Source: Halanaeroarchaeum sp. HSR-CO (lineage in GTDB: Archaea > Halobacteriota > Halobacteria > Halobacteriales > Halobacteriaceae). From it: a stretch of DNA of 64,000 nucleotides. Where the stretch lies: NCBI RefSeq assembly GCF_024972755.1, contig NZ_CP087724.1:1116001-1180000 (forward strand), given 5' to 3'. This document shows, one piece after another, positions 11,809 to 47,460 of this stretch; the first letter of the stretch is position 1; each line of letters opens with the position of its first letter. The translations under genes were made by a program, and so were the position numbers. The notes under the pieces are model-generated. The model was not told the origin of the DNA, made no database searches, and saw only the letters and a list, made by a program, of their open reading frames with translations.

Positions 11809-13238
11809 TCCTCGTGACGGAACATCGGGTCGTCTTTCATGTGATTGATTTCTTCATCGGCGAGATTGTCTGATATCACATCATCACGCTGGAACTCATT
11901 TGGGATATCAATGCCTTCCTCACCGCATATGTTTGCGACACGCTCTGAAATCCGAATTCTGGTTTCTTCTTCAATTTTGAAAAAATCGTCATATAATTCG
12001 TGCGGATTACGGAGGAATTGGCGGTAAATTGGGTCATCTTGGTCGTCGTCTACCAGCTCCATATATGTCTCGAACCATTCTGGTTCCCGATGTAGTTTTA
12101 ATTGGGCTTGACACCGAGGGCATTGTGTCCAGTTGAGCCAATCATCGATACTGTAGTTACATCGTGGACACTCATCGAGCATCGGCGTCCGAATATCCGC
12201 ATCCTCTACATTGAGGCCCATTTTTTCCGCCATCTCTGCATGGCGGTCTTCGTCTTCTGTGTGGTCGTAGAGGTCTAACTGGTTGCTGTTGGGACCCCAG
12301 TTCATGTGGTCACTAATCTGGCGGTCTGTATATCCCTCAAGGCGCATTTGGGTAACTCGTGAGTGCCTGAATGAGTGGGGGTTGACCTTCTCTTCAGGGA
12401 TATCTGAATCTTTCACGAGGCGTCGCATACGTCGGCGGAAGAACGAAGGAATGAGACTGTTATCTTTGTCTTCCTCGTAGTGGTCTTTGGTCACCGCGAA
12501 GAATGGGGCGTCGGGGTTTTCGGGGTCAGGGTGCTCTCTCGATATGTAATTCTCCAAATACACTTCGGATGGTTTGACGATTACAGAGTGCCCACCTGCG
12601 CCCTTGAGACCCTTGGCTTCCTCGGGAAACTGAACAAGGGTGGAGTTCCCAGGTCCTTCTCCGAACTGCACGTCGCTAATTCGCAATGAGAGGATAGCGG
12701 ACAGTCGAGCGCCTGTCTCGTACATGAGGTATATCATCGCTCGGTCGCGGTCCATCCGTGCGCATTCGGTCAGCAATTTCTTGATATCCTCAGCAGAGAG
12801 TGTGTCCTCCTTTTTGATTTCATTTTGCTCAGCCTCTGTAAATTCGATTTCTTCGGCCTCATCTTGGAACCCGTGATGGGCGAGGAACACGCGGGCAGAT
12901 TTTTCATAATTACGTTGGGTTCCGTCACTCCACCCACGCTTTTTTGACACATTAATAATCAGTTCGTCCAATTCTACCCCGTTGTGTTCGAGTAAGGGCT
13001 TCTCTGCATTCTGGGATAGTATACGGAGACAGGATACGTGATTGATGATGGTACTGGTTTCTTTGTTCTTGTCTCGATTTATGTAATCCTCGATGGCGTC
13101 GATGTCACTCTCACTATCGAGTTTTTTAACTTCCTTTCGCTGACTTCGAAGTTGAGCACGGAAGTTCTGAGGGTCATCTAAGGGCATCTGCTTATCAAAC
13201 TCTAACCATCTATTTAATGTATTGGGATTCGATACCAC
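11805..13238 (-). CDS. int: Tyrosine recombinase (integrase) with C-terminal zinc ribbon
   Basis: 477 aa. It has a SAM-like core-binding domain (about 25-125) and a catalytic domain with R178 (ETGARLSAI), H288-x-x-R291 (NPHSFRHSR), H311 and nucleophile Y324 (LDLYDH). After the catalytic domain C357, C360, C373 and C376 form a zinc ribbon, then an acidic helical tail. All catalytic residues are present. The start is GTG 13238, or ATG 13187 (residue 18), which would keep the coding region clear of the inverted repeat at 13225-13251. It sits at the junction between AT-richer element DNA and GC-rich core DNA, next to a tRNA-3'-end-like sequence, and is the probable integrase of the element to its left. 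Confidence 0.92.
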   Translation of the reverse strand: MVSNPNTLNRWLEFDKQMPLDDPQNFRAQLRSQRKEVKKLDSESDIDAIEDYINRDKNKETSTIINHVSCLRILSQNAEKPLLEHNGVELDELIINVSKKRGWSDGTQRNYEKSARVFLAHHGFQDEAEEIEFTEAEQNEIKKEDTLSAEDIKKLLTECARMDRDRAMIYLMYETGARLSAILSLRISDVQFGEGPGNSTLVQFPEEAKGLKGAGGHSVIVKPSEVYLENYISREHPDPENPDAPFFAVTKDHYEEDKDNSLIPSFFRRRMRRLVKDSDIPEEKVNPHSFRHSRVTQMRLEGYTDRQISDHMNWGPNSNQLDLYDHTEDEDRHAEMAEKMGLNVEDADIRTPMLDECPRCNYSIDDWLNWTQCPRCQAQLKLHREPEWFETYMELVDDDQDDPIYRQFLRNPHELYDDFFKIEEETRIRISERVANICGEEGIDIPNEFQRDDVISDNLADEEINHMKDDPMFRHED

Positions 13239-18640: not shown

Positions 18641-19081
18641 ATGAAGACCACACGGCATGCGACCTACAACCTCAACTACCACATAGTGTGGTTGCCGAAG
18701 TCTCGCAGAACCGATGGTTCTGCGGACATCGCGGAACAGGGTTCCGCTCAGTACCGTCAGTCGGTACTCGTCAACGAGGTCGCCGACCGTGTGCGAACCA
18801 TCCTCCACGAAATCGCCGACGAAAAGGGCTTGGAAATTATCGACCTTACCGTTCAGCCCGACCATATCCACCTGTTCGTCAGTAGTCCACCAAAGCACGC
18901 ACCGTCACTTCTCGCCAACTGGTTCAAGGGTATTTCCTCGCGGAAATACAACCATCGCTATGCCGACAACGAGGGCGAGAAGATTCGATGGGCGCGGGGC
19001 TACTACGCAGGAACGGCGGGTCACGTTTCCAGCGAGACGGTACAAGACTACATCCAACGTCACGAGGAGGCCGACACATGA
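18641..19081 (+). CDS. tnpA: IS200/IS605 HUH transposase TnpA with an in-frame insert
   Basis: 146 aa Y1 transposase. HIH at 75-77 (PDHIHLFVS) is the HUH metal site and Y137 (DYIQRH) the nucleophile for single-strand cutting and joining. Residues 21-37 (SRRTDGSADIAEQGSAQ) interrupt what in homologs reads LPK-YRxSVL, and correspond to a 51-nt double-hairpin insert (18701-18751) that keeps the frame. The insert lies between the first strand and the first helix, so activity may survive. The stop overlaps the tnpB start as ATGA. Confidence 0.9.
   Translation: MKTTRHATYNLNYHIVWLPKSRRTDGSADIAEQGSAQYRQSVLVNEVADRVRTILHEIADEKGLEIIDLTVQPDHIHLFVSSPPKHAPSLLANWFKGISSRKYNHRYADNEGEKIRWARGYYAGTAGHVSSETVQDYIQRHEEADT
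18701..18751 (+). repeat. Double-hairpin insert A inside tnpA (51 nt, in frame)
   Basis: Hairpin 1: CGCAGAACC (18704-18712), loop GAT, GGTTCTGCG (18716-18724). Hairpin 2: GCGGAAC (18731-18737), loop AGG, GTTCCGC (18741-18747). Both stems are perfect. A third perfect stem AGTACCG/CGGTACT (18750-18768) begins at the insert edge within codons that look native to tnpA. Confidence 0.8.
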
Positions 19082-46892: not shown

Positions 46893-46912
46893 CACTGCAT
46901 TCGTTCGTTTTC

Positions 46913-47385
46913 TCGGCTCCTCGACGGATTGACGCTCGAGAAAATAGCGGGCGGTAGATTTGAACCGGATCCAGACGGTCGCTCACTCCGTTCGCGCTGC
47001 ATCTGGCAGGGTTCAAATCTTCTCGACATATCCCTTCGCTCCGCACAACCTCGCAGCCTGACGGCTGCTCGGTGGCGAGTCGCGAAGGAATATAGCGGGA
47101 GGTAGATTTGAACTACGCCCGAGAACCTGCGCAGAGCGCAGAACCTCGGTCTACTTCAAATCTCCCTTGCATACGTTTTGCTCGCTCCGGACGTCTCGGA
47201 GCCTGACGGCTCCTCGACGGATTGACGCTCGCAAAAGATAGCGGGAGGTAGATTTGAACTACGTCAGGACGTGCTCGCTCCGCTGCGCGCGCCCTGCCTT
47301 ATTCAAATCTCCCTTGCATACGTTTTGCTCGCACCGGACGTCTGGGAGCCTGACGGCTCCTCGACGGATTGACGCTCGCAAAAGA
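46913..47385 (-). repeat. Tandem ~147-bp array of tRNA-Met 3'-end copies with hairpins
   Basis: This gene-free stretch has three partial copies of the initiator tRNA 3' end at 46945-46966, 47093-47116 and 47239-47262, spaced 148, 146 and 147 bp from each other and from the real gene at 47386. Each unit also has an inverted copy of the T-arm word (TTCAAATC at 47012, 47155 and 47302) and, in the three complete units, a hairpin: GCAGCC-TGAC-GGCTGC (47053-47068), GGAGCC-TGAC-GGCTCC (47198-47213 and 47345-47360). The A:T to C:G changes in the stem are paired. The units differ in the middle. The left start is near 46913. Confidence 0.85.
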
Positions 47386-47460
47386 TAGCGGGAGGTAGAT
47401 TTGAACTACCGATCTCCGGGTTATGAGCCCGGCGGAATCTCCTGGCTATCCCATCCCGCT
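47386..47460 (-). tRNA. Initiator tRNA-Met (CAT)
   Basis: 75 nt. The acceptor stem AGCGGGA pairs with TCCCGCT plus discriminator A. Anticodon loop CTCATAA sits on a stem with three G:C pairs (GGG/CCC) next to the loop, and the first pair is A1:U72; these are initiator marks. TTCAAATC T loop; CCA not encoded. 3' end faces the repeat array. Confidence 0.93.

Follow-up and report, generated by a model that had tools for sequence, protein, structure and literature searches.

Why should a tRNA gene be followed by repeated copies of its own 3′ end? The question is raised by the gene for the initiator tRNA-Met (iMet) of Halanaeroarchaeum sp. HSR-CO, which lies in the window considered here, a stretch of 64,000 nucleotides (contig NZ_CP087724.1, positions 1,116,001 to 1,180,000 of the forward strand). 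The 3′ ends of tRNA genes are integration hot spots in prokaryotes. The original prediction for this array offered two origins: serial integration at the tRNA 3′ end, or a REP-like or structured repeat that had spread together with the tRNA end.

The array, together with its distal flank, occupies positions 46,905–47,460, and all of its features are read on the minus strand. It is anchored by the iMet gene (47386..47460; ARAGORN and Rfam RF00005), whose own tail, D1 (47386..47406), comprises tRNA positions 53–73, from the T-loop to the discriminator, and reads GTTCAAATCTACCTCCCGCTA. Each of the three units that follow consists of a trailer hairpin, an inverted copy of the tRNA tail, a core hairpin, and a direct tail copy. 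In unit 1, these are the trailer (47321..47385; TTTTGC..GCAAAA with a TGAC loop, fold z −3.8), the inverted copy I1 (47302..47320), a core of a type also found at the iMet gene of the genus mate (47260..47301), and the tail copy D2 (47239..47259). Unit 2 has its trailer at 47174..47238 (fold z −3.8), I2 at 47155..47173, a core of type C, which recurs at 26 haloarchaeal tRNA isoacceptors, at 47114..47154, and D3 at 47093..47113. In unit 3, a GCAGCC/GGCTGC version of the trailer (47031..47092; fold z −6.1) precedes a diverged inverted copy, I3 (47012..47030), a core of type A (46966..47011), and the most distal tail copy, D4 (46945..46965). The flank past D4 (46905..46944) resembles the start of trailers 1 and 2 (GCGTCAATCCGTCGAGGAGCC). 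Tail copies, I2, I3, and the flank were read from the sequence and I1 from sequence and fold; the cores were defined by sequence comparison and fold (units 1 and 3) or by fold and genome scan (unit 2).

The expected three tail copies at intervals of about 147 bp are indeed present: successive copies from D1 to D4 are spaced by 147, 146, and 148 bp, with D2 and D3 identical to D1 and D4 carrying one change. I1 and I2 are identical (both TATGCAAGGGAGATTTGAA), I3 is a weaker match, and each precedes a tail copy with which, as had been proposed, it can pair. The stretches from inverted copy through core to direct copy fold at −34.4, −39.2, and −30.3 kcal/mol in units 1, 2, and 3 (z −3.7, −5.5, and −3.3), and none of 200 shuffles folds as well. 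For all six hairpins of the three units, trailers included, z ranges from −3.3 to −6.1 against shuffles. The reported double change in the TGAC-loop stem was also found again, in the trailers (GGAGCC/GGCTCC versus GCAGCC/GGCTGC). Trailers 1 and 2 are nearly the same, and the cores differ among all three units. An origin by chance or as an assembly artefact is ruled out by the shuffles, by the controls given below, and by the occurrence of the hairpin pattern in 52 of 59 separately assembled genomes. As an aside, two initiator-like tRNA-Met genes about 25 kb apart occur both in this genome, hereafter G000 (G000:C1:1189602, L051), and in the genus mate, G001 (G001:C1:787375 and 810883), and a further genome (G088) has six matches to the initiator tRNA gene.

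G000 and G001 were searched with the iMet array, and all of their tRNA loci were then compared. The order of parts seen at iMet (tRNA tail, trailer hairpin, inverted tail, core hairpin, tail copy) is the general one, and the core hairpins fall into several recurring types. Units are mostly 70–140 bp long and gene-free; among inserts of up to 180 bp, to which the length set was restricted, lengths range from 69 to 171 bp with a median of about 100. A common plan underlies the 64 distinct hairpins of G000 and G001: an inverted T-arm is followed by an asymmetric internal loop, an inner stem with a GNA-type tip, and a direct T-arm copy; as read from the sequences, the tip appears often to be flanked by tandem G-A. 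Insert ends have no clear shared terminal repeats, and their base composition reveals only a T-rich start and a final G. A cmscan of the window region and four further loci returned only tRNAs, plus hits to unrelated families far below threshold, so a known RNA family was rejected as an identity for the units, which have no Rfam match beyond tRNA. At the Leu-CAA loci (L160–L188), an additional hairpin is conserved in most species (GGAAGAC..GTCTTCCCTCGCA). Its 3′ arm copies no more than about 10 nt at the very end of the tRNA, and it may be an old or abbreviated version of the unit.

The tail copies have sharp edges at tRNA positions 53 and 73. Over 50 type C loci, identity of the copy to the tRNA tail is 0.94–1.0 for positions 53–64, 0.8–0.9 up to 73, and about 0.3 beyond; before 53 it is low, at 0.06 for position 51 and 0.70 for position 52, where both sides often have G. 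In 11 of 61 tail copies, the T-loop motif is interrupted by one extra base, in most cases C. Such copies (GTTCACAATC; type C loci, e.g., L212, L227, L232, and L265) make up about one in six and come from unrelated species and tRNAs. CCA follows the copy in none of 81 cases, and reverse transcriptase PF00078 is found in none of nine genomes tested, observations on which reverse transcription of mature tRNA was rejected as a source. The inverted copy also fits the local tRNA. At type C loci, a first test for pairing of the acceptor strand with the stretch before the T-loop complement was negative. In a gapped comparison of 117 units from four genomes, however, the inverted copy fits the tail of its own tRNA, with a small interruption, better than the tails of other tRNAs (p 9e-11), so the inverted copy is whole but interrupted in many units.

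Units of this kind clearly do occur at tRNA genes in relatives; their absence from all relatives, which would have refuted the original prediction, is not what is observed. In the four genomes compared most closely (G000, G001, and two species of one genus, G003 and G009), units carrying the tail of the adjoining tRNA occur at 19–23 of 42–45 tRNA genes per genome. Counted as own-tail copies, 137 lie downstream and 2 upstream, with about 1.5 expected from the tails of other tRNAs. T-loop-like copies downstream of tRNA genes are own-specific in 126 cases, with 13 exceptions, 10 of which sit behind tRNA-Asn and belong to an adjoining tRNA-Met gene and its own copies. The general hairpin pattern found in 52 of the 59 relatives has a count of zero in the reversed control. 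In a phylum-wide draw, 17 of the 19 genomes from the order contain it; among 101 genomes from elsewhere in the phylum, 3 do, with single hits, one of which is a tRNA gene itself.

A scan of 84,980 species genomes with the type C core returned 81 stretches, all haloarchaeal, containing 84 occurrences. Three were left out of the tRNA-linkage count because the match was at the edge of the available stretch. All 81 assessable copies have a tRNA gene 35–500 nt ahead of them and share its orientation; they represent 26 isoacceptors, and the arm past the core follows the host tRNA's own tail, decayed in some copies. Carriers of type C units include Haladaptatus and Haloferax elongans/larsenii. Three seemingly tRNA-less hairpins (L017, L018, and L339) lie behind genes read as intron-bearing tRNA-Trp, missed by ARAGORN. 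A match in G000 at 453050 (L341) has no tRNA nearby and is probably due to chance.

One might take the units for relics of ordinary viruses or plasmids that integrated serially at the gene and then decayed. tRNA tails are classical attachment sites, and partial tRNA copies are known beside haloarchaeal proviruses (PMC3119063). Tyrosine recombinase elements that integrate into tRNA genes also duplicate the tail and may insert in tandem (PMC8371274, PMC3119063), whereas the haloarchaeal units are small, repeat positions 53–73 at all tRNAs, and have an inverted copy and cores common to several tRNAs. At about 20 tRNAs per genome, the units are uniformly small and alike in architecture; they have hairpins in common and no room for gene remnants. 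A scan of IMG/VR found no hits for types A and C and two for type B, one a provirus edge at tRNA-Glu (L189) and the other a bacterial sequence hit by chance (L190). When the window array was compared with plasmids, most matches were roughly as long as the initiator tRNA gene; matches to phages measured about 50 bp. Viral carriage of the units was rejected on this evidence, and the arrays are, as far as tested, not a virus or plasmid feature.

What is apparently an ordinary integrated element can be seen at tRNA-Arg(TCG) of G009, where a 55-kb stretch (G009:C1:1166485-1221500; L286, L340) splits the tRNA gene from its former hairpin array. The two edges of this stretch have 14 nt in common (CCTGCAACGCCCAT), with a tyrosine recombinase gene at the inner one. 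The array at L340 seems to lack a tRNA because the 55-kb stretch cut it off from tRNA-Arg. (The Cas1 gene of G009 also lies inside this stretch.) Only about 14 nt of tail is repeated at the edges of this element, compared with the 53–73 repeat of the hairpin units at every tRNA. Overall, we find descent from decayed viruses or plasmids scarcely credible. Of the serial integration first envisaged, one part stands, in that units are gained or lost precisely at a tail copy; the ordinary tRNA-integrating elements are not their source.

That precision is evident from comparison of close relatives. At orthologous iMet and Leu-CAA genes, in about 30 species each, there are 0–3 units with differing cores. 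For most tRNA genes, the preceding 60 nt are about 97% identical between G003 and G009, yet the two species differ in unit number at about 20 of 41 tRNAs. Glu-CTC provides a clean filled/empty pair: G009 has no unit, and G003 has a 102-bp unit between the tail and a flank that is 92% identical to that of G009. The extra unit adjoins the tRNA at Val-GAC and Tyr-GTA and is distal at Leu-TAA. Between G000 and G001, about 10 unit pairs keep the core at 81–96% identity (mostly >90%) while downstream flanks are at 54–62%, and other pairs have wholly different cores. Units come and go quickly between related species.

Inserts are also shared between different tRNAs. In G009, the inserts at Lys-TTT, Arg-CCG, and Arg-TCT have trailers and cores that are 84–100% alike and differ mainly in the complement of the local tail (GGCCAGGAG, GGACGGG, and GGCACACGA, respectively), which stands before GATTTGAA. 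The Lys and Arg tails differ past the T-loop, and each of these near-identical inserts is flanked by local tails. Similarly, inserts at Leu-TAG (G009) and Val-CAC (G003) are 89–91% alike, each with its own tail.

Could recombination account for all of this? Haloarchaeal cells are polyploid, and homologous or repeat-mediated recombination between 21-nt tails, both inside such a genome and across species, might lengthen, shorten, and disseminate arrays without any dedicated mobility. The unit-precise differences between G003 and G009, the repeated blocks of units at Ser-TGA, and the near-identical units at Gly-TCC all agree with this, and there is a precedent in Haloquadratum, in which repeat-mediated deletion occurs between repeats of 4–20 bp (PMC3119063). 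Exchange between equal tails does explain changes in copy number; it cannot carry an insert across from a Lys to an Arg tRNA, and near-identical whole inserts with local tails are found at both. As the full account of the arrays, we therefore regard recombination as unlikely.

Our preferred reading, to which we give a little less than an even chance (a probability of roughly 0.45), is that a family of non-coding hairpin elements inserts at haloarchaeal tRNA 3′ ends with a 21-nt target duplication. The element would target the 3′ end of the tRNA gene, and nt 53–73 would come to be duplicated on both sides of the insert, as by a staggered cut and fill-in, so that the tRNA would stay intact. The insert would bring the trailer hairpin, the inverted tail, and one of the several kinds of core hairpin, with the duplicated tail completing the hairpin; repeated insertion at one tRNA would give an array. 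Such insertion would explain in one step the local tails on both sides, the edges at 53 and 73, the inserts shared by unrelated tRNAs, and the unit-precise presence and absence.

Base pairing is possible between the GATTTGAA segment of the insert and the universal T-loop, TTCAAATC, and may guide the element to tRNA genes; the remainder of the inverted copy, which is tRNA-specific, would be copied anew from the target at hand. The fit of the inverted copy to its local tRNA goes beyond what insertion alone provides and needs local copying or later correction. We tentatively suggest, as a possible rather than a probable extension, that this represents a new mechanism of mobility, in which the GATTTGAA arm pairs with the T-loop and insertion writes direct and inverted copies of the local tail, giving the same core new arms at each tRNA. 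It should be noted that an empty site looks alike after insertion and after loss by recombination between tail copies, so that the direction of change, gain rather than loss, is something we infer, and that extra units are not all next to the tRNA, as the distal one at Leu-TAA illustrates.

If the units are instead maintained for what they do as RNA, they may be structured 3′ trailers of tRNA transcripts under selection (e.g., for 3′ maturation, termination, or small RNAs), with tails perhaps homogenised by gene conversion and modules swapped at the T-loop motif. Several patterns in the sequences are consistent with this. The orientation to the tRNA is constant in the 81 type C cases; in G000 and G001, the outer stem has 52 G·U and 0 A·C oppositions, and for 57 of 64 hairpins the fold of the tRNA-sense strand is the better one. 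Orthologous tRNAs often have cores that are 91–96% alike, compared with 54–62% for downstream flanks, with paired changes at Lys-CTT and Val-GAC. In an alignment of 49 type C units (whose core conservation is partly by construction, because the search pattern fixed the core sequence and not the arms), there are 82 both-side changes, nearly all in the outer helix, whereas shuffles give 30.5 and slid versions no more than 36.

However, covariation of the arms can also come from copying of the tRNA tail. At the tRNA-specific positions 62–65 of type C, G·U and A·C are about equal (26 and 27), and wobbles are mostly at a few signature positions. Many tRNAs are unit-less in one of two close species, so the unit is dispensable at any one tRNA. 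With the sense-strand bias present in G000 and G001, yet confined to signature positions across type C, the case for an RNA function is real, although not closed; we consider it doubtful as the primary explanation.

If insertion is the correct reading, the enzyme would presumably act in trans, and inserts of 69–171 bp are too short for an integrase of their own or for other genes. Cas1 (PF01867) is absent from the array-rich genomes G000, G003, and G028, and a resident Cas1 or casposase was rejected as the general agent on these grounds. Each of the nine genomes tested has both tyrosine recombinases and Y1 transposases, in numbers unrelated to those of arrays, and these enzymes are candidates without specific support. 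No enzyme among these four groups (Cas1, PF00078, tyrosine recombinases, and Y1 transposases) is tied to the units, a point that counts against insertion. Examples of the last two groups are encoded in the window: a tyrosine recombinase domain (PF00589) in a 484-aa frame at 12252–12800 on the minus strand, with no adjoining tRNA gene, and an IS200/IS605-type Y1 transposase domain (PF01797) in a 150-aa frame at 18746–19060 on the plus strand, one of four in the genome.

A specific role for a tyrosine recombinase can be imagined by analogy with integrons, in which attC sites are folded hairpins at unit boundaries, with GTT at the boundary and a core box GTTRRRY, and the array lies beside an anchor site. 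The haloarchaeal hairpins likewise sit at unit boundaries with GTT, in an array beside a tRNA anchor. Cassettes might then be moved as folded single strands, with a hairpin ending in AAC..GTT, a boundary at G53/T54, and new cassettes joining at the tRNA end. The asymmetric internal loop, the variable tip, the boundary at GTT, some extra units at the tRNA end, and recombinases in 9 of 9 genomes would all agree with this. Such a site, however, would take cassettes with any tail, and nearly all tails, those of distal units included, match the local tRNA; the number of recombinases is unrelated to the arrays; the haloarchaeal box, GTTCRAA, departs from the integron box at GTTC; and the inserts are too short for genes. 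We know of no integrase linked to the haloarchaeal units, and we consider an attC-like process very unlikely.

Other known systems resemble the units in part. Nearest in anatomy are the 178-bp repeats of Escherichia coli tyrT (RtT RNA), tandem units behind a tRNA gene that each repeat about 19 bp of its 3′ end. To our knowledge, these are confined to one enterobacterial tRNA locus and have no inverted tail copy and no cores common across tRNAs. The haloarchaeal units are also tandem and carry the tRNA 3′ end behind the gene, but they have the inverted tail, cores spread across many tRNAs, and no match to RtT in Rfam. REP/BIME and MITE-like elements are short, non-coding, palindromic, and dispersed, with few core types, whereas the haloarchaeal units are confined to tRNA 3′ ends in fixed orientation and end in the host tRNA tail rather than in a constant sequence. 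Structured inserts that recur at dozens of tRNA genes bear out one half of the original idea of a repeat spread with the tRNA end; the REP-like label is unsuitable because the arms are specific to the host tRNA.

Insertion targeted to tRNA 3′ ends does exist in archaea: the casposase of A. boonei acts at the 3′ end of tRNA-Pro, where it requires the motif TCAAATC, and the 14–15 bp that it duplicates lie 8 bp past this motif (PMC6614799). Like casposons, the haloarchaeal units duplicate a fixed target segment, as judged from the sharp 53–73 copy and the empty and filled sites at Glu-CTC. They differ in that the duplication is of 21 nt from the T-loop, the inserts lack both terminal repeats and genes, and array-rich genomes are without Cas1. 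A further likeness is to CRISPR arrays, which grow beside the leader, with spacer insertion by Cas1 integrases.

We found no earlier description of haloarchaeal tRNA-tail arrays in the open-access literature on archaeal tRNA-associated repeats, the scope of our search. The units look like an undescribed kind of tRNA-homing DNA element, and it seems that a gene-less element family present at about half of a genome's tRNA genes, and through most of an archaeal order, has gone undescribed. For annotators, the practical consequence is that tail copies of this kind should not be taken for integration relics. The flanks of haloarchaeal tRNA genes can also serve as fast-changing markers. More broadly, with about 45 sites per genome that act as natural replicas, variation between close species, and culturable hosts, the haloarchaea offer a system for studying how an element may remodel its termini to suit each target, or what use may be made of structured tRNA trailers.
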